Source of the DNA: Silvibacterium sp.
GTDB lineage: Bacteria; Acidobacteriota; Terriglobia; Terriglobales; Acidobacteriaceae
DNA length: 35,540 nucleotides
Reading direction: 5' to 3'
NCBI GenBank assembly: GCA_030037215.1
Contig: JASHRS010000096.1
Span: 1-35,540 of the forward strand
Shown here piece after piece: positions 55-17,177 of this stretch. Position 1 is the first letter of the stretch, and each line of letters begins with the position of its first letter. The translations under genes and the position numbers were made by a program. Under the pieces are notes generated by a model that worked only from the letters and a program-made list of their open reading frames with translations, ran no database searches and was not told the origin of the DNA.

Positions 55-1155
55 CTAATTCGGCCGCAGCCCCGAAATCTGGACCAGCCCGTGCGTCGGC
101 GCCGGGTAGTAGCCCTTCCGGTGCATATTGGCCCAGTAAATTCCCGTTCTCGCAAAAGACTTCTCGCAGTCCTGCGTGGACGGCCCGCGCATATTGCCTT
201 CCATGTAAGCAAGTCCGGGGCAGCGCGTGCATGATCCGACGTGGCCGCATCCCGAGCACACCGGAAGATCGCGCAACCTGATCGAGCGCACATCATTCAG
301 TTGCTCTGAGTCTCGCCAGATGTCGATGAACTTCTGCTGCCGCACATTCCCGCTCGGTAAAGGAAACTGCACGCACGGATAAACATCTCCATAAGGCGAG
401 ATATAGCATGCATTGTTGCCGGCGCTGCACGGAACCTCATTCAGGATGTCATCATTCACTGCCGGTGGCGGAGCGCAGAATTCGTCGGCATCGTCCACCG
501 CGACCGGATCGCGAAAGACCTCGTGCAGCTTGGGCACGCTCAGCCCTAGTTGCAGAACGCCCCTGTCCCCATTCATCATCGGCGTAATCATCGGATCGAT
601 TGTGCAGTGCGCGCCCAGCTCCGCTGCCAGCGCCTTCACCCCTGCATAATCATTCATGGTCTGGTTCATCAATACATTCGCAAGAATCACCTTGATCCCG
701 CGCTCCCGCAGCAGCCGTATCCCGGCAACAGACCGCTTCAGCGATCCCGGAAGCAGCGTAACCGCGTCATGCACTTCAGGCCGGTGCGAATAGATGCTCA
801 CCTGCACTTCGTTCACCGCCAAGTCCTTCAACCGCTGCGCTTCTTTCTCGCGGATCATGAACGCATTCGTCTTGACCTTCACGCAGAACATCAGCGAGCG
901 CGCGTACTCGATGATCTCGAACGCGTCCATTCGCATAAAGACTTCGCCGCCGCTCAGCGTAAGGAAGAACACGCCCGCTTCCGCGAGTTGATCGAGCACG
1001 CCGCGGATCTCCGCCGTGGTCATCTCGCCGTAGTCTTCGTGGTCAAGGTAGCAATGGACGCAGCGCTCGTTGCACCTGTACGTCACATCCAGATGCACGC
1101 TTATCGGCACGCCGAGTTCGTACGCGCGCTGCCCCAGGCTCTGCATCAGGCTCAT
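55..1155 (-). CDS. Radical SAM/SPASM peptide-modifying enzyme
   Basis: This 366-residue protein has the radical SAM cluster motif CX3CX2C at C28, C32 and C35, which binds a 4Fe-4S cluster that cleaves S-adenosylmethionine. A GGEVF stretch near residue 70 fits the SAM-binding region. The C-terminus is a SPASM domain for auxiliary Fe-S clusters: C243, C250, C261 (in a GX4C context), C300, C303, C309, C312 and C330. SPASM enzymes beside PqqD proteins normally modify a short peptide, for example by thioether or carbon-carbon crosslinks. The ATG start overlaps the stop of the PqqD gene (ATGA), so the two are translationally coupled. The substrate is most likely the 59-residue peptide encoded at the head of the operon. 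It is not PqqE by context, because no other pqq genes or PqqA-like peptide are visible. The family is certain; the reaction is unknown. Confidence 0.9.
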   Translation of the reverse strand: MSLMQSLGQRAYELGVPISVHLDVTYRCNERCVHCYLDHEDYGEMTTAEIRGVLDQLAEAGVFFLTLSGGEVFMRMDAFEIIEYARSLMFCVKVKTNAFMIREKEAQRLKDLAVNEVQVSIYSHRPEVHDAVTLLPGSLKRSVAGIRLLRERGIKVILANVLMNQTMNDYAGVKALAAELGAHCTIDPMITPMMNGDRGVLQLGLSVPKLHEVFRDPVAVDDADEFCAPPPAVNDDILNEVPCSAGNNACYISPYGDVYPCVQFPLPSGNVRQQKFIDIWRDSEQLNDVRSIRLRDLPVCSGCGHVGSCTRCPGLAYMEGNMRGPSTQDCEKSFARTGIYWANMHRKGYYPAPTHGLVQISGLRPN

Positions 1156-1469
1156 CGTGCCCCACCCTGCGCCGGCTTCGTTCGGCCGATTGGCTCGTTG
1201 GACACGATAAGGAGACCGTGGCTGGCCAGATCGTTCACAAAGCTTTCGGCATCCCTGGTGGCCACCATCGGGTCCACGTCAAACTCCGCGCAGATCTTTT
1301 CCCTTACGATCGCCGCTACCGGCGTGTTTCCATCCGCTGACTGCCAGATGATCGTGGCAACCGGATTCAGCGTGAACAGGGTCGAGTCCTTTGCGGACAT
1401 GATCATCATCTCGCCGCCAAGCGCGCGGGCAGCGACATCTGTTGCTCTGGCAATATACGCAGCACTCAT
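1152..1469 (-). CDS. PqqD-family peptide chaperone (RiPP recognition element)
   Basis: A 105-residue protein of the PqqD/coenzyme PQQ synthesis D family. Such proteins bind the leader of a precursor peptide and present it to the radical SAM partner. The typical core is visible: a beta-rich N-terminal part with 'TLFTLNPVATIIWQ', then a helical part with 'VREKICAEFDVD' and a conserved end of the 'FVNDLASHGLL' type. I place the start at the ATG at 1469 rather than the upstream TTG at 1484, because GGGAG lies 8 bases before the ATG and the ATG overlaps the TGA stop of the HPr-kinase-like gene (ATGA). Its own stop overlaps the start of the radical SAM gene in the same way. This chain of overlaps argues that kinase, chaperone and radical SAM enzyme are made in fixed proportion. 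Confidence 0.88.
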   Translation of the reverse strand: MSAAYIARATDVAARALGGEMMIMSAKDSTLFTLNPVATIIWQSADGNTPVAAIVREKICAEFDVDPMVATRDAESFVNDLASHGLLIVSNEPIGRTKPAQGGAR

Positions 1470-2260
1470 ACAATCAACTCCCAAACGCGCTTATCCGGAA
1501 CGAACGTCAGCCGGTACACCGGAACCTGCCTCACCAGTTCGCACGCGGTCTCAAAAACCATGCGCACCAGCTCCGGGTCATTCGCAAAGAACAGCACGTT
1601 TTCCATCAGCTTCCGAACCGCCTCACTGTGGCCCAGCGGCTCAATCAAGTTCTCAGGCCCCTGGTGCAGCAAATACAAGGCTGCCAGCGGTGCCTGCACA
1701 TTCTCTCCCACTCTGGCCAGCTCTCCCGCAAACGGCGTGCCATGCGCAACAAAGCCTTGCTCTTCGCGCCGCAAATAGGAAATTTCGTCCGTCAGCAGCA
1801 GTGCATCCGGCGGAGCCAGCCGCGAAATCGTCGTCTTCCCTGCTCCGGAAACGCCGGCAAACAGGAACGCCTTGCCGTTGCGCACCGCGCTGGCGGCATG
1901 CACCAGCAGCCCGCCCTCGCGCGCCAGCATCAGGCTGTGAAAGATCCGCAGTGCCACATCAATCGAGTACGGGTTCGCCGACTGCACGATTAGGCCGCGT
2001 CTCGCGTTCTGGTCCCACTCCGCCCGCAGGTCTCCGCGTTCGATCAGCCACCGGCCCTGCTCCAGCCGCACCGAAATCTCCTCTCGGTTCGTAATCCTTC
2101 CCGGAGGCATAAGCTCAACGTCAAATTCGAAGACAGGCAGCGAATTCGGGCTCAGAAACCCTCCGTACCGGCCTTCAAGCATCCGCAGGAACTCGAGGCT
2201 CTCGCTGCGCACAGGGCTTTCGCATCGTACTAGGATCGGCGCGCCGCCAATCTCGATCAT
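1466..2260 (-). CDS. HPr kinase-like P-loop protein of a RiPP operon
   Basis: A 264-residue protein related to the C-terminal kinase domain of HPr kinase/phosphorylase. It has a clear Walker A motif, GVSGAGKTT (residues 136-144 from the chosen start), preceded by 'LLVHAASAVRNGKAFLFA', the usual HprK-like entry to the P-loop. No PTS genes are near, so regulation of sugar uptake is unlikely. HprK homologues in some lasso-peptide clusters phosphorylate the precursor on a C-terminal serine, and the precursor here ends in three serines. A peptide kinase role is therefore a reasonable inference. The start is uncertain. I chose the ATG at 2260, which has AGGA 4 bases upstream and lies 23 bases after the preceding stop. 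The longer form from 2329 would overlap the peptidase gene by 46 bases and lacks a ribosome binding site. Confidence 0.82.
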   Translation of the reverse strand: MIEIGGAPILVRCESPVRSESLEFLRMLEGRYGGFLSPNSLPVFEFDVELMPPGRITNREEISVRLEQGRWLIERGDLRAEWDQNARRGLIVQSANPYSIDVALRIFHSLMLAREGGLLVHAASAVRNGKAFLFAGVSGAGKTTISRLAPPDALLLTDEISYLRREEQGFVAHGTPFAGELARVGENVQAPLAALYLLHQGPENLIEPLGHSEAVRKLMENVLFFANDPELVRMVFETACELVRQVPVYRLTFVPDKRVWELIV

Positions 2261-2283
2261 GACTTCCTGGCTGGTAATTGTGG

Positions 2284-2763
2284 CTAGGTCTCCCACGAAA
2301 CCTCCCTGCTCAAGGCGCGCTCCAGCCATTGGCCCATACGCAGCGTTACACGCAGCCAGAACTTCGACCGCCGCACAACGATCGACCCTAACCGCTGCAT
2401 AGCCGACTGCCTCAAATCCACGCTCCGCCCGTTGCGGACAATCGAAACCACCTGCCCCAATAAGTCCGGCCCCATCGTCGGCGGGTCATCCTGCGGCAGC
2501 GAATCGCCCCGCGTGATCAGGCAGCCGTCCAGGATGCTGATAACCCTGTGGGCCACCAGCTCACCACCCCGCCTGCAAAGCACAATCTGCCCCGTTTGCA
2601 ATTCAGCCATCTCGCGGCGTTGCGCCACGATAACATCGCCCGGCCACACCGCCGGAATCATGCTGCAACCGGTCACTTTTAGGCGGACCTCGCCGAACTC
2701 CCGCGCAACATCCGCGGTCAGCTCACAGCCCAGCGCAATGCGCCGATCTGTCTCACCACTCAT
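2284..2763 (-). CDS. S24/S26-type signal-peptidase-like protease
   Basis: A 159-residue protein resembling the catalytic domain of signal peptidases and LexA-like proteases. The nucleophile motif is 'GCSMIPAVWPGD' with Ser34. The second motif, 'ELVAHRVIS', places His72 where bacterial type I peptidases have Lys, so this is the Ser/His arrangement of SipW, archaeal and ER enzymes. A third conserved patch, 'ITRGDS', includes Asp87. There is no N-terminal membrane anchor, unlike true signal peptidases. The C-terminus (about 115-159) is Arg-rich and amphipathic. It starts 10 bases after the stop of the precursor-like peptide, so leader removal is the obvious hypothesis. The alternative is an inactive or regulatory homologue. 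Family assignment is good; the substrate is inferred from context. Confidence 0.82.
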   Translation of the reverse strand: MSGETDRRIALGCELTADVAREFGEVRLKVTGCSMIPAVWPGDVIVAQRREMAELQTGQIVLCRRGGELVAHRVISILDGCLITRGDSLPQDDPPTMGPDLLGQVVSIVRNGRSVDLRQSAMQRLGSIVVRRSKFWLRVTLRMGQWLERALSREVSWET

Positions 2764-2773
2764 TGCGCGCCCG

Positions 2774-2953
2774 TTAGGAAGAGCTCAGGTTATGGGCGCA
2801 CTGTGCCTGCGTGGAAGACACCTTGCCGCACGACAGAGCCCGCGTCTCAAACACACGCTCAAAACGGAACTCGGGCTTCTGATACGACTTCTTCGCCGTC
2901 GACAGCGCGCCTTCTTGATCGGCGATCTCGTTTATCTTGTCTTCTCGGCTCAT
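2774..2953 (-). CDS. Putative RiPP precursor peptide, 59 residues
   Basis: This short frame starts at an ATG preceded by GAGG at 5 bases and ends 10 bases before the peptidase gene. The N-terminal part is charged and leader-like. It is followed by 'KKSYQKPEF', a YxxP pattern that recalls the leader motif bound by PqqD-like proteins in lasso-peptide and related clusters. Next comes 'RVFETRALSCGK', then a small C-terminal part rich in Ser, Thr, Gln and Ala. There are two cysteines, C42 and C52, and the peptide ends in NLSSS. The cysteines could be acceptors for radical SAM crosslinks, and the terminal serines could be kinase sites. There is no signal peptide and no membrane segment. The role is inferred from size, position at the operon head and the neighbouring enzymes. 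The cleavage site is unknown. Confidence 0.75.
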   Translation of the reverse strand: MSREDKINEIADQEGALSTAKKSYQKPEFRFERVFETRALSCGKVSSTQAQCAHNLSSS

Positions 2954-3121: not shown

Positions 3122-5017
3122 TCACTGTAATGCGCTCTGCGACACTTGCTCGCCGACATTACTATTCAAATTTCCAAAATATATCTGGGATGCCCCGGTT
3201 GTAGTTGAGTTATTATCCACGATCATTCCGCTGGTCCCTTTGCCGCCTGAAGCGGTCTGGGTTGCGGCTGCGGCAGTAGGAAAACTGGTTGTCAGATTAA
3301 AGCCAGCGACACATTCATTGAAGGCGCAGGGAACCGAAGTGTTCTTCACACCTACAAAGAGAAAATCCACGGGCGTCGGGGGTGTGGTGGATGTATTGCC
3401 ATTGACGTTGTAGAACTCAGTCAGCGGGGTGCAATCAAAGGCGGTGCCCGTGTTGCCGCTCTCTACCAGTTGGAAGGAGTTGCCGTCATTCGCGCTGGCC
3501 ATGACACCGCTTGTGATTGCGACCCGCCGCAGCGCCGGTGTCGCCGCGCTCGTAATGTTTCCGCAAAAATACATATACCCCGTATGGGTTGTGAGATATG
3601 TATTGTCAAACGCTCCGTCATACAGATCGGTATAGGTACTGCTTGACGTCGATGCGGCGAACCCCATGTTGACCTTGACCTGGTTGGCCATTGACGTAGT
3701 CACCTGGGTCAGGATCGCGCACCCGGTTGCCGTGGGCGAGGTGCATGAAGCCGTGAAGTTGTTCGCCTCGGCAAAGACCTTGCCCTCAGTGCTGTCCACA
3801 ATTGGGGCATCAAGAATAGCCCCGCCTGTCCCTCCAGATCCGACAACAGCAGTGCCGCAGGATGCGCCTGTGGTGGAATTGATGCAGTAAAGAGTTCCGT
3901 TGCTGCCGCCGGCAAAGATATTTCCGCTGACTGAGTCGTAGGTCGGCCCCGTAAGGATTACACCGCTGGCGACAGTGACCGGCCATGGAGCGGTCGTCAC
4001 TTCCGCCATGATAGTTCCCGCAGGCGGTGTAGTTCCTGACGGTGTCGTGGTAAACACGCCTGTGAATTTATGCAGCTTGCCGCTGTCATCCCCCACATAC
4101 GCCACATCATGCGTATAGTCCACAAATGGCGAGGAACGGGTCACGCTTGTGAAGCCGCTCATCACAACATTGACATCCACAGCATTGTTGGTCGGGGTCA
4201 CAGTGCACGACGACGTCGTCAAAGTTCCATTGCTGTATACAGTGCAGGGGTTCACCGGCGCGGCAGTGGTAGTGCTCCCGAAGTTCGTTCCGGTCGTTCC
4301 TATCGTAACCACATGAAACTTCGACCCTGTGGAGGTGCCGTTGCCGGTGATGCTCTCCACGAAGGCCACTTTGGTCCCGCCTTCAGAAAGAACCGGCGAA
4401 GTCTGGACTATGCCTGTGCCGACATAATAGGAGAAATAATAAGTGGGTATCGGCGGCGGTGAACCCGTCGACGTACCGCATGTCGTGGCGTAGAGTTTGT
4501 TCACGCCGACGATGTTGGGGCCGCTATTCATGGCGCCCGCGGCATTAACGGGAAAAACCACAAAGTCCGAGCAACTCGGAGCGGAAGTAGTGGAAAAGGT
4601 GTACTTCGCCGGATACATATCCGGCGCGACGCTGCCGTCAATTAGAGTCGCAGTCCAAAGCCCGCCCGAATCATCGCCGTTCCCGTGCCTACGGTTGGGA
4701 TCCCTGAAGTCCTGCAAATTCTCTTCCCGCGATCCAGAAGTGTCTGTGGAAGTCGCCGCAGGCTGCGGGGCATTCTGCTTGATCCACTGCATCCGGTAGC
4801 GGGGACTGGTGACAATCTGCACCCATCTCTCGCTCGTGCCGTTATTGATCGCATCCTGGAGCGAGCCAGGGTTCGAAAACATGACGTGATGATGCGTCCA
4901 GTCATCCACAACGCCGCTGCCGTAACTTTGGTTCTGCTGGGCAAGCGTCGGCAAGGCAAGGAAGATCACAGCCGCAAGGGAAAGACTGCTTACAGTGAGG
5001 GGGCAAGACCGCTTCAT
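3122..5017 (-). CDS. Secreted beta-propeller-like protein
   Basis: A 631-residue exported protein. The N-terminus 'MKRSCPLTVSSLSLAAVIF' followed by 'LALPTLAQQ' is a Sec signal peptide with cleavage likely after the Ala of TLA. I use the ATG at 5017 because GGAGGA lies 8 bases upstream; the ATG at 5032 is part of that site. The body is rich in Gly, Ser and Thr and has repeated strand-like units, for example 'YVGDDSGKLHKFTGVF' and 'IFAGGSNGTLYCINSTTG', which resemble PQQ-type or WD-like propeller blades (roughly residues 190-500). No PQQ or quinone ligand motif can be assigned. Many cysteines are present, compatible with periplasmic or extracellular disulfides. Function is unknown; an outer-surface or periplasmic binding role is a guess. 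It lies directly upstream of the RiPP operon, but a 168-base gap separates them. Confidence 0.75.
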   Translation of the reverse strand: MKRSCPLTVSSLSLAAVIFLALPTLAQQNQSYGSGVVDDWTHHHVMFSNPGSLQDAINNGTSERWVQIVTSPRYRMQWIKQNAPQPAATSTDTSGSREENLQDFRDPNRRHGNGDDSGGLWTATLIDGSVAPDMYPAKYTFSTTSAPSCSDFVVFPVNAAGAMNSGPNIVGVNKLYATTCGTSTGSPPPIPTYYFSYYVGTGIVQTSPVLSEGGTKVAFVESITGNGTSTGSKFHVVTIGTTGTNFGSTTTAAPVNPCTVYSNGTLTTSSCTVTPTNNAVDVNVVMSGFTSVTRSSPFVDYTHDVAYVGDDSGKLHKFTGVFTTTPSGTTPPAGTIMAEVTTAPWPVTVASGVILTGPTYDSVSGNIFAGGSNGTLYCINSTTGASCGTAVVGSGGTGGAILDAPIVDSTEGKVFAEANNFTASCTSPTATGCAILTQVTTSMANQVKVNMGFAASTSSSTYTDLYDGAFDNTYLTTHTGYMYFCGNITSAATPALRRVAITSGVMASANDGNSFQLVESGNTGTAFDCTPLTEFYNVNGNTSTTPPTPVDFLFVGVKNTSVPCAFNECVAGFNLTTSFPTAAAATQTASGGKGTSGMIVDNNSTTTGASQIYFGNLNSNVGEQVSQSALQ

Positions 5018-5171
5018 TGGACACTCCTCCAATTCGCGAGCTTTAGGCAGGTAAAAGTAGCAGGTGTAAGGTCAGGGATCTAACCCCTTACTTAGAAACA
5101 CACCTCCCCGGCGCAGGTTGCCCTCAATCAGGGAATGCTGCGGAATTTTTTTCTTGGGCTGAAAGCCGATT

Positions 5172-5447
5172 CTAGCTGGGTTTCCTGTATTCGATCTCGT
5201 CGCCGTGCAGAAAATATTCGAGCGAACAGTTGTCTGACCCGCAGATCATGGATTGCAGGCCGGCAAACTGCGTACGTGTAATCAGTCCCAACGCGCCGCA
5301 GCCCGGGCAGGCCAGCACCGCCCAGTAAGGATCCTTCGCATCACCCAGCGCTCCTGCATTTTCAAGCAGAAACAACGTACCCGGCTCCATCTGTTCCGGA
5401 ATCCACTGCTCAAGCAACTGCAGTTCCGATGACAATTCCGTCGACAT
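5172..5447 (-). CDS. Small Cys-containing hypothetical protein
   Basis: A 91-residue protein I do not recognise. The start is the ATG at 5447, which has AGGAG 9 bases upstream; longer in-frame versions lack a start with such a site. The N-terminal half is acidic and Leu/Glu-rich ('ELQLLEQWIPEQMEPG'). The C-terminal half holds 'CPGCGALG' and 'MICGSDNC', two cysteine pairs that look like a short zinc ribbon. It ends with 'EYFLHGDEIEYRKPS'. It may be a small zinc-binding adaptor protein, but nothing near it shows a partner. Confidence 0.7.
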   Translation of the reverse strand: MSTELSSELQLLEQWIPEQMEPGTLFLLENAGALGDAKDPYWAVLACPGCGALGLITRTQFAGLQSMICGSDNCSLEYFLHGDEIEYRKPS

Positions 5448-5818
5448 AGTTAATTCTCCTGTCTTCGTTTGCGCCCTTTGGATTGCGGCTCCGGATCTCT
5501 CTGGGGAAATCTCATCCGTTCCGCCTAACTTATCGTCACTGACGTGCGGGGTTCGCGTCCCTCCTTGCCGGAAAATCAAGGGATAAAAAGAAAACCGGCC
5601 CCATGCATAAAATTCCATGCACGTTGCGGGCCGTTCTAGCCGCCGATGCGGCGATACTTGTCTCGATGGATGCGTTCGCGTAGTGCTCGCGGTTCCACAT
5701 GGCGAAGAGAGCGATGATCTGCTTCCCTGCATCTTTGACGCACCCACGCCGAATGTCAATACATTGCGCGGTATCTTCAGTGGTTCCCCAGCCCATTGTG
5801 GGGCGATAGCACTTCTGC
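5448..5818. other. Intergenic region without a supported gene
   Basis: No frame here has a good ribosome binding site or protein-like composition. The most noticeable structure is an imperfect inverted repeat at 5593-5635 (AACCGGCCCC and GGGCCGTT), which encloses a smaller repeat TGCAT/ATGCA. On the minus strand it would lie in the leader of the gene starting at 5447. It has no T-run, so it is not a classical terminator. Confidence 0.4.
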
Positions 5819-6103
5819 TTACTTCTCGACTTCCACGCCGCGCCAGAAGGCGATATATCCCTTGATCTTCCGTGCCGCGGGCTTCGGATCGGGATAATAC
5901 CAGGCTGCATCCTGGTTCTCCTGCCCATCTACAACAAGCGAGTAATACCGCGCCTGTCCCTTCCAGGGACAGGTTGAGGTGGTCGAGCTGGGGCGAAGGT
6001 ATTCGCGCTTGACCGCGCTCTCCGGGAAATAAACATTGTCCTCAATAATTTGTGTCTTCTCGCTTTCCGCGATCGTTACTCCATTCCAGACAGCCTTTGC
6101 CAT
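5819..6103 (-). CDS. DUF427 domain protein
   Basis: A 94-residue protein of the DUF427 family. It begins 'MAKAVWNGVTIAESEKT', and the motifs 'YFPESAVKREYLRPS', 'TCPWKGQARYYSL' and 'AAWYYPDPKPAARKIKGYIAFW' are the recognisable family blocks. The biochemical function of this family is unsettled. The fold is small and cytosolic with no signal peptide. The start at 6103 fits the family N-terminus and has AGGA about 9 bases upstream; the ATG at 6145 would add an Arg-rich extension with no family match. It appears to be a single-gene unit with its own promoter at 6149-6176. Confidence 0.88.
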   Translation of the reverse strand: MAKAVWNGVTIAESEKTQIIEDNVYFPESAVKREYLRPSSTTSTCPWKGQARYYSLVVDGQENQDAAWYYPDPKPAARKIKGYIAFWRGVEVEK

Positions 6104-6529
6104 CGTCCCGGTCCTTCTTCTATTGAATCGTTGAAAATCTGACACTCTACAATAACAGATGTTTCATCGCGCTCAACGTCTCGGTACCCAGGCAGATACC
6201 GCAACCTTCACGTCATGGACTGTCAAGTCATCTATTTTGTAACCGTCATAACAAGAATGGTTTGCAGAACCCCGGCAGTGCATTTCATTTCCACTCGTTT
6301 CGCTAAAATGAAAAGAGAAGAGATTTTGCTCCATTTCTCGTGCGCCGACCGAACAATAGCTGATGGCTTTGCATTTTCTCCGGCAGAGGGAACATTGAAC
6401 TTTCCTTGTTTTCTAAGAGTTAGAATAAGAAAAACATTTAAAACTCTTTATTTTCAACGACTTGGCAAAACATGCCTTTCCTGAAAAGTGAATGGCATCT
6501 ATGAGATAGAGCGATTCTGAAGAAAAATT
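6104..6529. other. AT-richer intergenic region
   Basis: This stretch lies between the 3' end of msrQ and the DUF427 gene. It is clearly AT-richer than its surroundings. A plus-strand frame at 6215-6484 has no ribosome binding site and no recognisable motif, and I do not call it a gene. The only element I can support is the candidate promoter for the DUF427 gene. Confidence 0.4.
6149..6176 (-). promoter_or_regulatory. Candidate promoter of the DUF427 gene
   Basis: On the minus strand TTGAGC (6171-6176) and TATTGT (6149-6154) are separated by 16 bases, about 46 bases upstream of the start at 6103. Each box matches the sigma-70 consensus in four of six positions. Confidence 0.35.
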
Positions 6530-7123
6530 TCAATCGCGGACCCAGTTCAGAATCGGCCTCGCCGCCAACAGCACCCCCAGGACCACCGTGATCTCCATCG
6601 GAGTCCGGTCGCCCTGCTTCACGCCCCACCAGTAATGCACCACCCCGGCAATGGCAGCCAGGTACGCCAGCCAGTGCAGTCGGATCCAGTTCTTGCCGCC
6701 CAACTTGCGGATCGACCACGACGTCGACGTCAGCGCCAGCGGAACCATCATCGCCCATGCCGCCAGCCCCGCGGTAATGAACCGCCGCTGGCTGATGTCG
6801 TCCACCATTGCCGCCCAACTGAACCCGGCATAGAGCCAGACATATGTCATCAAATGCAGACAGCCGTAAAAGAACGCATACAACCCCAGCATCCGGCGGA
6901 AGCGAATGATCCATGCCAGCTTCGGAATCACCTTCCGCACCGGCGAAATGGCCAGCGTGATCACCAGTAGCCGAAGCGTCCCGCGCCCGGTAAAGAAAGT
7001 CACCGTATGGGTCGGGTCCGGTCCCAGATTATTTTGGAATCCCCGCATCACGAGCCATGCAACGGGAGCAAGACAGGCAATATGAACCAGAACTTTCAGA
7101 GTAATAACAACACGTTTCGACAT
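6530..7123 (-). CDS. msrQ: MsrQ, heme-binding membrane subunit of methionine sulfoxide repair
   Basis: A protein of about 197 residues with five or six membrane segments and conserved His residues in 'FFYGCLHLMTYVWLY', 'RLHWLAYLAAIAGVVHYWW'. It matches the MsrQ/YedZ family, a heme b membrane protein that passes electrons from the respiratory chain or a flavin reductase to periplasmic MsrP. The start at 7123 aligns with the usual N-terminus ('KRVVITLKVLVHIACLAPVAW'). A longer form from the ATG at 7177, which has AGGT 5 bases upstream and lies 19 bases after the msrP stop, cannot be excluded. The gene follows msrP on the same strand, the standard msrPQ order. Confidence 0.92.
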   Translation of the reverse strand: MSKRVVITLKVLVHIACLAPVAWLVMRGFQNNLGPDPTHTVTFFTGRGTLRLLVITLAISPVRKVIPKLAWIIRFRRMLGLYAFFYGCLHLMTYVWLYAGFSWAAMVDDISQRRFITAGLAAWAMMVPLALTSTSWSIRKLGGKNWIRLHWLAYLAAIAGVVHYWWGVKQGDRTPMEITVVLGVLLAARPILNWVRD

Positions 7124-7196
7124 CGATTCAGTATGCCATTCCGGGCCCGCAGCACCACGATGGCGGCGAAGCCGCATTTACCTGGACGGCAAGTCC

Positions 7197-8168
7197 CTAG
7201 TAATACTTTCTAAGGTCCATCCCGGTGTACATGCTCGCTACTTGATCCGCGTAGCCGTTGAACATCAGCGTTGGCTGGCGTTGTTTCCATATCGGCGCCC
7301 CGATCACTCGCTCCACCTTCTGGCTCCAACGGGGATGATCAACGTTGGGGTTCACATTTGAGTAGAAGCCGTATTCGTTCGGAGCCATCTCGTTCCATGT
7401 CGTGGAGGGCTGCTTCTGCACAAAGCGCACCTTCACAATCGACTTCGCCGACTTGAAACCATACTTCCACGGAACCACCACGCGCACCGGAGCGCCATCC
7501 TGGTTGGGCAGCACCTGCCCGTACAGGCCGAAGGTCAAGAGCGTCAGTGGATGCATTGCCTCATCCATGCGCAACCCCTCCGAGTAGGGCCAGTCCAGTT
7601 GAACCCGGTTAAGGGCCGGCTCTTGGGAAGGGTCGTCCAGGGAAAGGAATTGCACATACTTTGCAGAAGGCAGGGGATCGCATTGCTTGATGAACTCGGA
7701 GAGCGAATAGCCAATCCAGGGAATCACCATGCTCCACGCCTCAACACAGCGGAACCGGTACACGCGGTCTTCCAGCGGCTGCAGTTTCATCAGCGTGTCG
7801 ATGTCGAACTTTTTCTTCGCCTTCACCAGCCCTTCGACCGAGATGCTCCACGGCCGCGTCCTCAGGCTGCCTGCATATCGCGCTGGATCGTCCTTGTCTG
7901 TGCCGAATTCATAGAAATTGTTGTAGTGCGTAATGTCATAAAAAGAGGTAGGCGTCAGCCCCTGCGTCGAAAAAGGGCTGCTGACCGTCGTCAGCTTCGT
8001 ATCCGCATGCACGCTCTCGGGCCGCAATACTTGGGCAAACCGTCCTGCGGCCAGGGCTGCCACGCCCGCCGCACCGGCCGCCATAAACGAGCGCCGATCC
8101 ATATACACAGAACGGGGGGTAATCTCTGAGGAGGGAATGGAAGTCGAACCGGACTTGCGAATCAGCAT
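7197..8168 (-). CDS. msrP: MsrP, periplasmic molybdopterin methionine sulfoxide reductase
   Basis: A 323-residue catalytic subunit of MsrPQ, which reduces methionine sulfoxide in oxidised periplasmic proteins. The N-terminus has a twin-arginine signal ([12 protein letters not shown], Arg25-Arg26) followed by a hydrophobic Ala-rich stretch, so the folded cofactor-loaded protein is exported by Tat. The molybdenum-ligand cysteine is Cys141 in '[15 protein letters not shown]'. Other family blocks include '[12 protein letters not shown]', '[18 protein letters not shown]' and '[11 protein letters not shown]'. AGGAAGG lies just upstream of the ATG. The length fits the family. It forms an operon with the downstream msrQ gene. 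Confidence 0.95.
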
Positions 8169-8325
8169 GATGCCTTCCTAAGCATTCGACTCAAACCGGC
8201 CGTCTCTGGTTACACTTGGCGGCAGATTCTTGCAGAATACCGGGCTGCACAAGAAAATCAGGAGAGCCCTGCAACTGGCGCAATAACCGAATTCATGATG
8301 CAGCAGGCACAAGGAGTATAAAACA

Positions 8326-9139: not shown

Positions 9140-10105
9140 CTATTTTGCGGCCTGAACGCCGCTGTTCTTTCGCGCCCGCTCTTCAAAATAGGGGAGCGAA
9201 AGAAGTAGTCCCTCTCGCAAAGATACCTCCGGGGACCATCCAAGCAGTTCCTTCGCTTTGGTGATGTCCGGCTTGCGCCGCGCTGGATCATCTTCCGGCA
9301 GCGCTTCATAGCGGATCCGGCTCTTAGATCCAGTGACGGCCAGAACTTCTCGTGCACACTCGAGAATGGTCCACTCCTCGGGATTGCCGATGTTGACGGG
9401 CAGGTGCTCCTCCGACTTCGAAAGACGCAGGATTCCGTCGATCAGGTCAGAGACATAACAGAAACTGCGTGTCTGCGCGCCATCGCCGAATACCGTGAGG
9501 TCTTCGCCCTGCAGCGCCTGCATCATCAGGTTCGAAATCACGCGCCCATCCGTCGGCTGAAGCCGCGGGCCGTAGGTATTGAAGATGCGGACCATCCGCG
9601 TATCGACGCCGTAATACCGGTGATACGCCATCACCGCCGCTTCGGAAAAACGCTTTGACTCGTCATACACTGACCGTGGGCCGATTGGATTCACGTGGCC
9701 CCAGTAGCTCTCCGGCTGCGGATGAACCTCTGGGTCTCCGTAACACTCCGACGTCGACGCATGAAGAAACCTGGCTCCGCTCCACCGCGCAACTTCGAGC
9801 AAATTTATCGTCCCATATGAGCCCACCTTCAATGTCTCAGGCCCCAGCCGTGCGTAGTCGGCAGGACTGGCGGGCGATGCAAAGTTGAAGACGTAGTCGA
9901 GCTGGTCGATCTCCAGCGGTTCGCAGATATCGTGCTCTATAAAACTGAAGCGTACCTCTTGGTTGAGTCCCTTCAGATTCTCCGAGTTTCCGGTCGAGTA
10001 GTTATCGACACCGACCACATGGTTACCGTCTGCAATCAAGGCCTCGCAAAGATGAGAACCAAGAAACCCGGCCGCCCCGCTCACCAGTACGCGTTTTTGA
10101 GCCAA
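9140..10105 (-). CDS. uxs: UDP-glucuronate decarboxylase (UDP-xylose synthase)
   Basis: A 321-residue short-chain dehydrogenase-type nucleotide-sugar enzyme. The N-terminal NAD motif is GAAGFLG. The blocks '[19 protein letters not shown]', '[20 protein letters not shown]' and '[17 protein letters not shown]' are specific for UXS enzymes, which oxidise and decarboxylate UDP-glucuronate to UDP-xylose; the last contains the catalytic YxxxK. I place the start at TTG 10105, which has GGAG (10114-10117) 8 bases upstream. The GTG at 10147 would overlap the previous gene and lacks a site. Its substrate is the product of the UDP-glucose dehydrogenase encoded 16 bases upstream, so the two genes form one pathway: UDP-glucose to UDP-glucuronate to UDP-xylose. 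Confidence 0.92.
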
Positions 10106-10121
10106 TGAGCCAACTCCTTCT

Positions 10122-11528
10122 TTACAAAGTCTTGAGCGCCTTAACACTTGTCGTTGGATAGGGCCGCCCGACGCTGAAATAGGTAAATCCTTTTTCGAGC
10201 ATCAGTTCCGGATCGAATAGGTTCCGGCCATCAATCACAATTGGATGCCGCAGTGCATTCCGCAGCCTGTCCAGGTCGATCGCTGCAAACTCCTGCCAGT
10301 CGCTCAGAATGAGCACAGCATGGGCATCCTGCGCCATCTCATACATATCGGATGCATACCGCACCTGCGGTCCCGGCGGAATCACGGTTTTCGTTCTCTC
10401 CATCGCCGCCGGGTCGTACAACGTGACGCAACAGCCTTCCTTCAGCAGCATATTCACAATGTCTATTGCTGGAGATTCGCGAATATCATCCGTACCGCCC
10501 TTGAAAGCAAGGCCTAACACTGCGATATTCTTCCCGCGCAGTGTCCATAACGCCGAGCGTATCTTCCTGAAGAACAGTTTTTTCTGCTGGCTGTTTATCT
10601 TCTCGACCTCAGCCAGAAGGTCGAACTGTTGCCCCAATTGCTCGGCGACCCATCGAAAGGCCGCAACGTCCTTGGGGAAACAAGACCCGCCGTATCCAAT
10701 CCCGGCGCGCAGAAATTTCGGCCCGATGCGCTCATCCATGCCCACGCCCTCGGCCACTTCCTCAACATTCACTCCAGCGGCATCGCAGATATTCGCAACC
10801 GCGTTGATGAAAGAAATCTTCATCGCCAGAAACGCGTTTGTGGCATGCTTGGTCAACTCAGCGGCCTTCGTCGACATCTTCAGCAGCGGCGGAGGATTGT
10901 TTGCACTGCGGCTGCCCGGAACCGCGTGAGGCAGGTTGTAATACGCGCCTGAAGTCAACGGCCCATAAATCTGTCGCATCACCCTGGCTGCACGTTCACT
11001 TTCAACACCGATGACAATGCGGTTTGGATGAAGAAAATCTGTAACTCCTGTTCCCTCGCGTAGAAACTCCGGGTTCGAGACCACATCGAAGGTATCTTTT
11101 TGAGTGCCGTTCCGCTCGAGAATCCGGGTGATCCACTCGTTTGTATAAACAGGCACCGTACTCTTCTCAACAATCACCTTATAACTATCGATGGAGCGGG
11201 CGATCTCGCTCGCAACGGCATCCACATATGAGAGATCGGCATCGCCAGTGTCTGATTGCGGCGTGCCGACTGCAATAAAGATCACCTGCGCCTGGCTGGT
11301 CGCTCGATGCAGTTCAGTGGTGAACTCAATGCTACCTCCACGATGCCGGCTCAATATCTCAGGCAGGTACTCCTCATGGATCGGCACTCCGCCTTCGTTC
11401 AGGAGACGCACTTTTTCTTCGTCGTTATCCACACAGATGACGCGGTGTCCCATCTCGGCAAAGCACGCGGCGGACACAAGTCCCACGTAGCCTGAGCCTA
11501 CGACCGCAATCACAATTTGTTGATTCAT
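10122..11528 (-). CDS. ugd: UDP-glucose 6-dehydrogenase
   Basis: A 468-residue enzyme that oxidises UDP-glucose to UDP-glucuronate with two NAD molecules. The N-terminal Rossmann motif is GSGYVGL, '[19 protein letters not shown]' is the conserved central block, and the catalytic Cys283 is in [10 protein letters not shown]. The C-terminal UDP-binding domain has '[17 protein letters not shown]'. An insertion of roughly 20 residues (about 192-217, '[17 protein letters not shown]' and following) stands where most bacterial homologues have a short loop before '[18 protein letters not shown]'. A GGA-containing site precedes the ATG. It lies 102 bases downstream of the aminotransferase gene and directly upstream of the UXS gene. 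Confidence 0.94.
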
Positions 11529-11630
11529 TCCGTGGTCCTTATTGAGTATTGTGAAACTTCAGGATGCCGCATCGGATTACGCCGTGCGAGAAAGCCGAAC
11601 AGGCTACCCTCAGAATGCCTGATTCGTGGC

Positions 11631-12740
11631 CTATAGTCGAGCAGTTGATCCGGCACCTGCCATTGCCCGTTGAATCGCGTCGCATATCTTTTCCTGATCT
11701 TCGAGCTTTAGATAAGGATGCATAGGCAGGCTGAGCACCCGGCGGGCAGCGCGCTCCGCGATGGGAAAGTTCCCCTCGACATAACCCAGATCGCGAAATG
11801 CCGGCTGCAAATGCGCGGGCACCGGATAATGGACCGCCGTCGGTATGCCTTTGTTTCTCAGTGCATCCACGATCCGTTCGCGATCATCGACTTCGATCGT
11901 GTATTGCGCAAAAACGCTGCGGTTCCCTTCTGTGATCCATGGCGTCTGAATAATCTCCCCAAGTAGCTTGGAATAATGCTCGGCAACCTCACATCGTAAC
12001 TGTAGCTCCTTGTCAAAAATTTCCAGTTTCGCCAGAAGAATCGCTGCCTGAATCGTATCCAGCCGCCCATTCAGCCCAAGCCGGACATGATGATACCTGG
12101 ATGCCTGTCCGTGGTTGCGAATCTCCTGCATAACGGCGGCAAGATGGTCGTCATTGGTAAAACACGCGCCGCCATCGCCATAGCAGCCAAGTGGTTTCGA
12201 AGGGAAAAAACTCGTGCACCCGATTGCGCTGAGGTTGCAGGATTGCCGGCCTTTATAAGTTGCGCCAAAGCTCTGTGCACCGTCTTCTATAACCGGCAGG
12301 TCGTGAGCTGCGTTCTGAATCGCGTCGAAGTCCGCGCATTGTCCGTAGAGTGAAACCGGCATTACAGCGCGCGTGCGCGAAGTGATGGCGCTGGAGATGC
12401 GCGACGCGTCGAGATTCCACGTACGCGGATCGATATCCACGAATACCGGCTTCGCGCCCAGCAGAGCAATCATCTCGACTGTGGCAATAAAGGTAAACGG
12501 CGAGGTGATGACCTCGTCTCCGGGCCCGATTCCCAGCGCCATCAGCGCGACCAGCAGCGCGTCGGTTCCACTCGCACAGGAAATGCAGTGTTTGCTTCCA
12601 GTACGCCGCGCCAGCTCAACTTCCAGTGCAGCAATCTCCGGACCGAGAATGTACCGGCCATGCTCAAGGACTGCGTGAATCCTGGAATCAACGCTTTCCT
12701 TGATGATTCTGTACTGCGTTTTTAGATCAACAAATTCCAT
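11631..12740 (-). CDS. wbpE: WbpE-like nucleotide-sugar aminotransferase (DegT/DnrJ/EryC1)
   Basis: A 369-residue PLP-dependent aminotransferase. The sequence follows WbpE/WlbC enzymes closely: 'HGRYILGPEIAALE', 'CISCASGTDALLVALMALG', 'MPVSLYGQCADFDAI' and the PLP lysine Lys182 in 'CTSFFPSKPLGCYGDGGA'. WbpE aminates the 3-keto group of UDP-GlcNAc uronate on the way to 2,3-diacetamido-uronic acids of O-antigen. It follows a WbpA-like dehydrogenase by 40 bases in the same operon, which supports this pathway. The 3-oxidase (WbpB) and the acetyltransferase (WbpD) are not in the window. The ATG at 12740 is used; the TTG one codon earlier is less likely. No clear ribosome binding site is visible, so translation may depend on the upstream gene. 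Confidence 0.88.
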   Translation of the reverse strand: MEFVDLKTQYRIIKESVDSRIHAVLEHGRYILGPEIAALEVELARRTGSKHCISCASGTDALLVALMALGIGPGDEVITSPFTFIATVEMIALLGAKPVFVDIDPRTWNLDASRISSAITSRTRAVMPVSLYGQCADFDAIQNAAHDLPVIEDGAQSFGATYKGRQSCNLSAIGCTSFFPSKPLGCYGDGGACFTNDDHLAAVMQEIRNHGQASRYHHVRLGLNGRLDTIQAAILLAKLEIFDKELQLRCEVAEHYSKLLGEIIQTPWITEGNRSVFAQYTIEVDDRERIVDALRNKGIPTAVHYPVPAHLQPAFRDLGYVEGNFPIAERAARRVLSLPMHPYLKLEDQEKICDAIQRAMAGAGSTARL

Positions 12741-12780
12741 CAAACGATTTCAACACCTGTTCCAGCCCGCAATTCCCGGC

Positions 12781-14124
12781 TCAGCAGTGCATAATTTTGT
12801 CGGACTGAATTCCCTTGGTCGCATTCCGCGTATCCACCACTAGCTTCGATTCAGCAACAATGCGCGCATAGTCGTAATCCGAATGGTCCGTCACAATAAG
12901 GACGGCGTCATACTGGCCCAGGTTCTCGAGTGGAGTATTTTCCATATTCAGGTCGTAGTGGCGCCCGTGCCCGACACGAGCAAAGTAAGGATCGTTGTAA
13001 TAAACGATTGCACCGCGCTGGCGGAGCAGCTCTATGATCGTCAGAGCGGGCGATTCGCGTAGGTCATCGATGTCCTTCTTATAAGCCACGCCCAGAATCA
13101 GCACTTTGGATCCCTTGAGCGACTTCTGGTGTTCGTTCAGTGCGGCCATGGTCTGCTCGAGCACGAAATACGGCATGTTGTTGTTGACCTCGCCCGCCAG
13201 TTCGATAAACCGGGTATGGAAATCGAACTGCTTTGCCTTCCACGAGAGGTAGAACGGGTCGATAGGGATACAGTGGCCGCCCAAACCGGGCCCCGGATAA
13301 AACGCCTGAAACCCAAACGGCTTGGTTTTTGCTGCGTGAATCACTTCAAAAACATCGATATTCATCCGCAGGCAAAGCTGCTTCAATTCATTCACCAGCG
13401 CAATATTTACGCAGCGGTAAATATTTTCAAGCAGCTTGGTCATTTCGGCTGCCGCGGGAGAAGACACAGGCACGATGCGATTAAAGATGCTCCCATAGAC
13501 CGCTGATGCAAGCTCCAACGCCACCGGTCCGCAACCGCCCACCACCTTGGGGATATCGCGGCGCGCCACCGTATCGTTCCCTGGATCTTCGCGCTCAGGA
13601 GAAAAAGCAACATAAAAGCCGGGCGTCTCCTCATCTCGCGCCACACGCAGGCCTGCACTATTCCCTTTTTCCAGAAGTGGAACTACAACCTCTTCCGTCG
13701 TGCCCGGGTACGTCGTGCTCTCAAGAACAATAAGTTGCCCCTGCCGCACATGCGGCGCCATCGCTTCGAGCGTTCCGGTAATAAAGCTCAGATCGGGCTC
13801 GTGGTACTCATTCAGTGGAGTTGGGACGCAGATAATCACGGCGTCCATCTGTGCAATCTCACTGTAATCTGCTGTCGCGCGAAAGCCTTTCTGCTGCGCC
13901 TGCCGCACCTCGCTGCCGGCAATGCGGACAATGTACGACCCGCCTGCGTTCAGCGTGTCTACCTTCCGTCTGTCAATGTCGAAACCGGTAACCGCGAATT
14001 GCTGCTCGCTGAAGAGCAGGGCCAGGGGCAGCCCTACATAGCCCATCCCGATAATTCCGATGCGGACCTGCCGGGTTTCCACCCTTTTCTTCAATTCCGC
14101 TGCTGTCAAAGAAGTTGTGGTCAC
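12781..14124 (-). CDS. wbpA: UDP-N-acetylglucosamine 6-dehydrogenase, WbpA-like
   Basis: A 447-residue nucleotide-sugar dehydrogenase. The N-terminal NAD motif is 'GIIGMGYVGLPLAL'. The block 'SPEREDPGN' and the catalytic Cys285 in 'GPGLGGHCIPIDPFYLSW' mark the WbpA/WecC side of the family, acting on UDP-HexNAc, and not the UDP-glucose type encoded later in the same operon. The C-terminal domain has 'LGVAYKKDIDDLRESPAL'. Known WbpA makes UDP-GlcNAc uronate. The start is GTG 14124 with AAGG 7 bases upstream. It is the first gene of a four-gene minus-strand operon that ends at 9140. Confidence 0.9.
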   Translation of the reverse strand: MTTTSLTAAELKKRVETRQVRIGIIGMGYVGLPLALLFSEQQFAVTGFDIDRRKVDTLNAGGSYIVRIAGSEVRQAQQKGFRATADYSEIAQMDAVIICVPTPLNEYHEPDLSFITGTLEAMAPHVRQGQLIVLESTTYPGTTEEVVVPLLEKGNSAGLRVARDEETPGFYVAFSPEREDPGNDTVARRDIPKVVGGCGPVALELASAVYGSIFNRIVPVSSPAAAEMTKLLENIYRCVNIALVNELKQLCLRMNIDVFEVIHAAKTKPFGFQAFYPGPGLGGHCIPIDPFYLSWKAKQFDFHTRFIELAGEVNNNMPYFVLEQTMAALNEHQKSLKGSKVLILGVAYKKDIDDLRESPALTIIELLRQRGAIVYYNDPYFARVGHGRHYDLNMENTPLENLGQYDAVLIVTDHSDYDYARIVAESKLVVDTRNATKGIQSDKIMHC

Positions 14125-17092: not shown

Positions 17093-17177
17093 GCGAAAGT
17101 GGCGAAATTGGCAGACGCACCAGACTTAGGATCTGGCGGGGCAACCCGTGGGGGTTCAAATCCCCCCTTTCGCACCA
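17093..17177 (+). tRNA. tRNA-Leu (anticodon UAG)
   Basis: A complete 85-base class II tRNA. The acceptor stem pairs GCGAAAG (17093-17099) with CTTTCGC (17167-17173), followed by discriminator A and an encoded CCA. The anticodon stem CCAGA/TCTGG encloses the loop CTTAGGA, giving the anticodon TAG at 17127-17129 and decoding CUN leucine codons. A long variable arm (CGGGG...CCCG) and the T arm GGGGGTTCAAATCCCCC complete the fold. Confidence 0.97.

Follow-up and report, generated by a model that had tools for sequence, protein, structure and literature searches.

A conserved gene set joining a radical SAM enzyme, an HprK-like kinase and a signal-peptidase-like enzyme in the Acidobacteriaceae, a candidate relative of linear polyphosphorylated peptide pathways

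Linear polyphosphorylated peptides (LPPs) are described from the Bacillota (Nat Commun, May 2026; PMC13381572), with a gene set of a peptidase, a RiPP recognition element (RRE; RiPP stands for ribosomally synthesized and post-translationally modified peptide), an HprK-like kinase and a nucleotidyltransferase. In the experiments reported there, the signal-peptidase-like LppS cleaves the leader after T-1, and the HprK-like LppK phosphorylates Ser3 of the core. The LPP leader consensus is YxxPxVLxHQxIxFETxxS, and the motif bound by the RRE is [Y/W]xxPx[L/V/I/A/F/Y] (PMC13381572); taking the consensus and the Ser3 position together, we read T-1 as the Thr of FET. The main text of that report calls LPPs restricted to Bacillota, and it states the biological roles of LPPs and paeninodins as unknown. 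The HprK-like kinases of phosphorylated lasso peptides have a His-Lys-Asp-Asp motif and target a C-terminal Ser that is extremely conserved in kinase-bearing clusters, according to the review PMC9266682. Here we present a five-gene set from Silvibacterium sp. (Acidobacteriota, Acidobacteriaceae), found at the left end of contig JASHRS010000096.1, which we analysed at its full length of 35,540 nts (hereafter the window). It has a radical S-adenosylmethionine (SAM) enzyme together with a peptidase, an RRE and a kinase of the LPP sort, and its gene content suggests, with moderate confidence, a RiPP pathway related to the LPPs.

All five open reading frames are confirmed on the minus strand, in the order precursor, peptidase, kinase, PqqD and radical SAM enzyme (Table 1), and their coordinates, spacing and Pfam and NCBIfam domain calls agree with the original prediction, which had described five tightly coupled genes. 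The precursor and peptidase genes are 10 bases apart, the peptidase and kinase genes 23 bases, and two ATGA overlaps join the PqqD and radical SAM genes to the operon. Longer alternative starts of the kinase are possible at 2314 and 2329, and we number its residues in the form starting at 2314. A sixth gene, ahead of the precursor, encodes a secreted protein that we name c3. When the six genes, c3 included, are compared with those of the related locus L038, third codon positions differ more than first or second (14, 14 and 32 differences at the three positions for the precursor). This codon pattern, together with recurrence across many genomes, argues that the precursor and the rest of the set are not chance open reading frames. 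Judged by its genes, their conservation, their co-occurrence and their invariant residues, all of which are observed, the set is a real, conserved RiPP pathway. The contig, all of which makes up the window, starts 54 bases past the stop codon of the radical SAM gene, and the left flank of the set is therefore missing.

Relatives of the radical SAM enzyme at E <= 1e-80 are present in 6 of 396 genomes of the phylum, all within the window's family, and at E <= 1e-60 in 91 of 398 family genomes, which represent 26 of 79 genera; the eight other listed genomes of the window's genus have none at E <= 1e-60. To describe gene order we use 42 loci, 40 of them places picked for spread among the radical SAM matches, which is not a random sample, and two from named records (L002, 69% identical, titled Bryobacterales; L003, 60%, on a 3.2-kb contig titled Pseudomonadota). 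These loci include the kinase in 41 cases, PqqD in 41, the precursor in 38 and the peptidase in 37 (a 38th, in L070, is detected by profile), as well as c3 in 26, a nucleotidyltransferase in 25 (in L040, L041 and L042 it directly follows the radical SAM gene), an ATP-binding cassette (ABC) ATPase in 11 and an ABC permease in 10. The order precursor-peptidase-kinase-PqqD-radical SAM is kept in 34 of them. The set recurs across the family, and the short peptide, on whose conservation the original prediction had staked its case, recurs with it. The exceptions are four loci without precursor or peptidase (L062, L066, L068, L077), L070, where the peptidase is seen by profile only, L071, with precursor and peptidase after the radical SAM gene, L074, with the precursor on the other strand, and L075, without kinase or PqqD. 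Several of them in fact speak for the set, because the missing part is found at another place of the genome: in G265, G497 and G457 this is the precursor (twice beside ABC genes, once beside the peptidase), and in G435 it is the kinase, together with PqqD, a nucleotidyltransferase and ABC genes.

The survey of the 398 family genomes finds the radical SAM enzyme in 91, the precursor in 84 and c3 in 86. Precursor and radical SAM enzyme occur together in 81 genomes, c3 and radical SAM enzyme in 80, c3 and precursor in 78, and all three in 76; three precursor genomes (one at E 9.8e-4) and six c3 genomes have no radical SAM match, and several of the surveyed assemblies are incomplete. By genus, 23 of the 25 c3 genera fall within the 26 radical SAM genera. 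Hypergeometric probabilities take no account of the shared ancestry of the genomes, and the co-occurrence argument rests instead on this genus-level overlap and on the split loci.

At E <= 0.1 neither NCBIfam nor Pfam has a model that matches the precursor, whose family shows the consensus KKPYxKPxFRxERVFETxALSCGKxxxTQxxCxxNxKxS. We tabulated 41 precursors: that of the window, 37 from main loci, that of L070 and two from the split loci L129 and L130. The L038 and L039 precursors have the same sequence, and the table leaves out the second copy of L069, broken over two frames, and the split copy in L131. The T of TxA is present in 40 of the 41 and the A in all; all have a final Ser and exactly two core Cys, separated by 9 residues in 33 cases, by 8 in 6 and by 10 in 2. 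We also read by eye 20 additional precursors outside the radical SAM loci, and 19 of these keep the pair of core Cys as well as the final Ser. The last residue is the only invariant serine of the precursor, and there is no conserved Ser at the LPP-type core position 3. A phosphosite adjoining the leader, as LppA Ser3 does, is rejected, since that position is not conserved. The analogy with LppS would place leader cleavage after T37; a cut behind A39 is also possible, because TxA fits the preference that signal peptidases have at residues -3 and -1. A cut at either place would presumably leave a core of 20-22 residues with both Cys and Ser59.

The radical SAM/SPASM enzyme matches PF04055 (5e-22) and PF13186 (7e-12), both over the Pfam cut-off. 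Its CxxxCxxC motif (C28, C32, C35) and seven SPASM-type cysteines (C243, C261, C300, C303, C309, C312, C330) are invariant in all 24 aligned sequences. The nearest solved relative of its profile is SkfB (6efn, 8.8e-24), PqqE being next, and none of the best 25 of its 62 NCBIfam matches reaches the cut-off. PqqD matches PF05402 (7e-15; 55.6 bits for a cut-off of 23.4). For the peptidase, of S24/S26 type by its match to PF00717 (1e-5), the top model is the archaeal-type signal peptidase TIGR02228 (1e-9; 38.3 bits, below the curated 51.85), which also matches 22 of the 23 aligned peptidases, at best with 1.2e-14; among solved structures its relatives are SEC11, LexA and signal peptidase I, and Ser34, His72 and G86-D87 are invariant in the 23 sequences. 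The kinase matches TIGR04249 (1e-14) and TIGR04352 (3e-7), each below the NCBIfam cut-off. Its predicted structure, with a mean predicted local distance difference test score (pLDDT) of 67.8, matches PEPCK in the PDB (5e-9) and, weakly, HPr kinase (4e-4, TM-score 0.28). Residues H139, K160 (in the Walker A stretch), D176 and E177 of the kinase are invariant in 24 aligned sequences.

These parts suggest a pathway in which each chemical step is a prediction. By homology, PqqD would bind the leader through Y-x-K-P-x-F and present the precursor to the enzymes. The radical SAM enzyme would modify the core, most likely at one or both invariant Cys; our leading guess for the product, held tentatively, is a Cys-thioether crosslink. 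The HprK-like kinase would phosphorylate the invariant C-terminal Ser, as PadeK, ThcoK and PsmK do in lasso peptides. We predict this site because the only invariant Ser is at the position used by paeninodin-type lasso kinases, and on that analogy the kinase likely acts there. In loci with a nucleotidyltransferase, a sugar or nucleotide may join the phosphate, as proposed for PsmN. The S26-type peptidase very probably removes the leader, at or just after FET/TxA. An ABC transporter, seen in some relatives, would export the peptide of about 20-22 residues, which may act outside the cytoplasm with a dedicated secreted propeller-type protein. A precursor that PqqD binds and the three enzymes modify, phosphorylate and trim is the best reading of the gene set; the crosslink and phosphorylation of the original prediction stay at the level of prediction.

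Table 1. Coordinates of the gene set, of the parts of the precursor and of neighbouring features in the window
Feature	Coordinates	Strand	Remarks
Radical SAM/SPASM enzyme	55..1155	-	366 aa; PF04055 + PF13186
PqqD-type discrete RRE	1152..1469	-	105 aa; PF05402
HprK/PEPCK-fold kinase	1466..2260	-	264 aa; ATG at 2260
S26 peptidase, archaeal-type signal-peptidase-like, presumed leader peptidase	2284..2763	-	159 aa
Precursor peptide	2774..2953	-	59 aa; profile A6 match in 84/398 family genomes
Presumed core LSCGKVSSTQAQCAHNLSSS	2777..2836	-	C42, C52; Ser59 = predicted phosphorylation site
T37-x-A39, presumed leader cleavage region	2837..2845	-	after FET or after TxA
YQKPEF leader motif	2867..2884	-	fits [Y/W]xxPx[L/V/I/A/F/Y]; predicted to bind PqqD
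Secreted protein c3	3122..5017	-	631 aa; directly upstream of precursor; signal peptide judged by eye
Nucleotide-sugar genes: epimerase, two UDP-sugar dehydrogenases, DegT aminotransferase	9140..14124	-	context; link to peptide putative

Several observations weigh against this pathway as drawn. The crosslink is predicted from the enzyme family and the conserved Cys; a disulfide would equally explain the two Cys, and another radical product is possible. L151, one of the additional precursors, lacks both the second Cys and the final Ser. No precursor was found in G741 (locus L068; best match 0.099), and its radical SAM match crosses one stop. A precursor match is missing from 10 of the 91 radical SAM genomes and a c3 match from 11. 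The PF14907-type nucleotidyltransferase of 25 loci is not beside the window's set, where the left end is cut, and three distant homologues lie elsewhere in the genome; neither is a transporter beside the set, at the same cut end. In the nearest characterised family, the target of LppK is Ser3 and not the last residue (PMC13381572). In the diverged relatives described below, the candidate peptide of L106, beside a kinase over the ScmC cut-off, ends in Ala. Finally, the kinase would read His-Lys-Asp-Glu in place of the His-Lys-Asp-Asp of the lasso kinases, if E177 is the last place of the motif.

The protein c3 is probably a beta-propeller of the type with pyrroloquinoline quinone (PQQ) repeats. 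The c3 proteins of the window and L038 have no Pfam or NCBIfam family over cut-off; PF13570, a propeller family, matches 3 of 16 aligned c3 proteins (best 1.7e-5), and the c3 profile matches PQQ-repeat-type propellers (the designed Cake9, 5e-16; 3hxj, 4e-5). An AlphaFold model of c3 was set aside as too poor (pLDDT 35.7). Using a clean profile, we find c3 inside the fetched stretch for 15 of 20 picked additional precursors, in varying orientation. Conversely, none of 10 picked c3 places has a precursor near c3, with a contig end cutting short two of them, L163 and L167; the best profile match there is 0.027 and has no YxxP. Because scoring covered three c3 candidates in each genome, the counts per genome are minimum values. 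The neighbourhood and the stand-alone copies indicate that c3 and the peptide are genetically tied in a pairing that is not strictly one-to-one. This genetic link is observed, and by it c3 is presumed to be a dedicated partner of the peptide.

Other observations on c3 include the case of the window's own genome, where contig G000:C185 (L163:1088-2992, 4845-6656 and 6765-8303, plus strand) has three c3 genes, the third running to the contig end, with no precursor near. L069:4353-9082 is a tandem duplication of c3 and precursor, in which the second precursor is the one broken over two frames. Many c3 proteins (window 3125-3142 and relatives) end in [ST]Q[SA][AG]L[QNK]. A fusion of c3 and precursor in L048, where there is a 1075-aa open frame, is rejected: the two genes use different frames, and c3 is closed by a stop codon of its own. 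Between c3 and the precursor there is no signal of RNA structure (z -0.55), and a promoter and terminator scan stays at chance level.

The distribution of c3 bears on what the peptide is for. The pathway could turn it into a cofactor or prosthetic ligand, as with PQQ or mycofactocin, and the multiple c3 copies would be the clients: the genomes with c3 are nearly those with the pathway (the radical SAM gene is present in 80 of the 86), c3 copies stand away from any precursor at the picked places, the c3 profile matches PQQ-type repeats, and a PqqD with a PqqE-like enzyme is the logic of PQQ. We consider it improbable, because PQQ-type repeats are common in proteins without PQQ, a kinase and a nucleotidyltransferase are, to our knowledge, not part of known cofactor pathways, and the presence of c3 beside 15 of 20 additional precursors fits pairs of peptide and partner better than one shared cofactor. 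A more specific idea, which we regard as unlikely if worth stating, is a three-part extracellular system in which the peptide is an obligate ligand, prosthetic group or covalent tag of the secreted propellers, radical-SAM-modified and C-terminally phosphorylated (perhaps glycosyl-phosphorylated), with the pairs multiplied genome-wide and one central maturation pathway. If true, such a system of peptide and protein would fit neither the antibiotic nor the cofactor mould of known RiPPs.

A kinase that does not act on the peptide, being a regulator of the pathway or inactive, would suit the Glu177 found where a second Asp is expected, and HPr kinases proper are regulators. This too is improbable in view of the invariance of His139, Lys160, Asp176 and Glu177 in 24 sequences, of the presence of the kinase in 41 of 42 loci and, for the one left, at another place in its genome, and of the C-terminal Ser in 41 of 41 precursors, and we prefer a kinase that phosphorylates this Ser.

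The set might also be a SynChlorMet-type cassette in the NCBIfam sense (ScmC, ScmD and ScmE/F). All 24 kinases match ScmC (best 1.6e-15), PqqD matches ScmD (1.9e-8), and in the phylum there is one genome (G062) with ScmC over the cut-off and a two-Cys YxxP peptide beside it. The scores speak strongly against membership, with 54.6 bits for a cut-off of 125 for the kinase, 34.4 for 100 for PqqD and 96.1 for 400 for the radical SAM enzyme (ScmE), and the cassette has two radical SAM models, ScmE and ScmF, where the window's set has one radical SAM gene. On these cut-offs we reject it, as a very unlikely assignment, and regard SynChlorMet as a distant relative; a full-text search of the open PMC library for the name gave no paper.

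The ScmC model leads to diverged relatives in other families of the phylum. It has matches in 108 of 297 phylum genomes, one of them over the cut-off, and we fetched 12 comparison loci, of which three are the nucleotidyltransferase loci of the window's own genome. Diverged genes for a kinase and a radical SAM enzyme are present in L112, L114, L116 and L117, some of which also have PqqD, a peptidase or both. A plausible YxxP or WxxP peptide lies beside the kinase in L106, L116 and L117, a small set hand-picked by eye; all three have two Cys, and those of L116 and L117 end in Ser. In L107, L108, L112, L113, L114 and L115 a motif scan, read by eye, recognises no plausible peptide. The L106 case (L106:8727-9844, G062:C312), where the 56-aa two-Cys peptide has the motif YEPPRL and accompanies the over-cut-off ScmC, is a candidate SynChlorMet-type precursor. 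At L117:2480-8740 (G068:C78) a gene of the C25 peptidase family (PF01364, 9e-50) and one for a DUF7933/DUF11 protein precede the two-Cys peptide that ends in Ser, which makes another pairing with a large protein. A single run of genes at L114:5748-10703 (G070:C36) comprises three HprK-like kinases, two radical SAM enzymes and one PqqD.

Highly implausible is a lasso pathway whose asparagine-synthetase-like cyclase and cysteine leader peptidase are encoded elsewhere. A discrete RRE, a YxxP leader motif, an HprK-like kinase and a nucleotidyltransferase all occur in lasso clusters, as the cited reports describe them, and some of the same genomes hold adjoining Asn_synthase and Transglut_core3 genes elsewhere, as in G417:C10 and G560:C28. 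However, the 16 places matched by PF13471 (Transglut_core3, B2) belong to 8 of 40 genomes and all lie on contigs other than those of the radical SAM gene; the window's genome has no match. PF00733 (Asn_synthase) is present in all 39 related genomes and, among the matches listed, lies less than 10 kb from the set in G121 only (L059; 7.5 kb from the radical SAM gene) and about 12 kb from the radical SAM gene in G529 and G598; the four matches of the window's genome lie on four other contigs. A tblastn search finds an Asn-synthase gene in 1 of 42 loci with the one clear Asn-synthase query, from L081; the PF00733 and PF13471 surveys are the better test because only L081 among the four queries is a clear Asn synthase. 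Moreover, an S26 peptidase replaces the lasso leader peptidase, and the core has no conserved Asp or Glu for ring closure. The lasso cyclase, which the original prediction had not seen, does not belong to the set, and neither does B2, on which grounds we reject a lasso pathway. True lasso clusters seem to coexist with this pathway in some genomes, because Transglut_core3 often adjoins Asn_synthase; a similar coexistence in Bacilli is reported in the LPP paper (PMC13381572). Side by side, the two genes are found in G417:C10, G560:C28 and several contigs of G619. The PQQ pathway is rejected on PqqE (88.7 bits for a cut-off of 381), PqqD (19.6 for 46) and a precursor without model match, and the flanks hold neither a lasso nor a PQQ pathway, either of which the original prediction had taken as fatal to its reading.

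The genes around the set provide some context. L038 lies amid polysaccharide genes (Polysacc_synt_2, Wzz, Wzy_C, UDP-GlcNAc 2-epimerase), and the window has its nucleotide-sugar genes. LPP clusters are also reported inside polysaccharide loci (PMC13381572), and by this analogy the surroundings of the window and L038 suit a phospho-sugar-tagged surface peptide, and are not proof of it. A few kb upstream of c3, at 7197-8168 (minus strand), the window encodes an oxidoreductase with a molybdopterin-binding domain (PF00174, 1e-29). L072 has a longer ABC protein (PF00005), which we take to be MsbA-like, the type of transporter given for LPP clusters (PMC13381572); an ABC protein of the window (PF00005; 23817-25640, plus strand), about 19 kb from c3 and exporter-like by eye, is similar to it. 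A single Rfam match in the window is a tRNA at 17093-17174.

The operon joins radical SAM modification and HprK-type phosphorylation, which we know only as studied apart in RiPPs. Since one short operon unites both chemistries and its precursor is very regular, ordinary co-expression can test each step. The suggestion of a possibly undescribed class in the original prediction holds in part: new here are the combination of a radical SAM enzyme with an LPP-like set, the two-Cys core, the host group and the secreted partner, and already known are the LPP gene set in Bacillota (PMC13381572) and the NCBIfam SynChlorMet pairing of kinase, PqqD and radical SAM enzyme. Among the papers listed by full-text searches of the open PMC library, outside which most of the subscription literature lies, none describes a RiPP with a radical SAM enzyme and an HprK-like kinase or this set. 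The secreted c3 family, as candidate partner, gives a concrete handle on the role of such peptides.

Compared with known systems, the set has something in common with four. SynChlorMet (TIGR04248-TIGR04251) shares the kinase-like ScmC, the PqqD-like ScmD and radical SAM enzymes, and its four models do not include the S26 peptidase or c3. The sactipeptide maturases, SkfB and relatives, give the best solved match to the radical SAM enzyme and likewise go with conserved core Cys; the window's set differs in that its RRE is a separate protein and a thioether of the sactipeptide kind, from Cys to an alpha carbon, is putative. With the phosphorylated lasso peptides paeninodin and pseudomycoidin, as published, it shares the HprK-like kinase, the C-terminal Ser and, in some, the nucleotidyltransferase, and it differs in having a radical SAM enzyme instead of the lasso cyclase and leader peptidase. 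The LPPs have most in common with it: an archaeal-type signal-peptidase-like peptidase, a discrete RRE, an HprK-like kinase, a leader with YxxP and FET, no macrolactam cyclase, surroundings of polysaccharide genes as in the window and L038 and, in relatives of the set, a nucleotidyltransferase (25 of 42 loci) and, at some loci, ABC export genes. In contrast to the LPPs, the window's leader has a YxxP-FET spacing two residues shorter and differs in the HQ and the following Ser; its core is short, with two Cys and a conserved C-terminal Ser, where the LPP core is phosphorylated at Ser3; and the set has the secreted partner c3 and a radical SAM/SPASM enzyme, the term "radical SAM" occurring 0 times in the main text of PMC13381572. 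That main text has no occurrence of "acidobacteri" either, and the set described here would extend the LPP logic, of signal-peptidase-like leader removal and a phospho-peptide, beyond the Bacillota.

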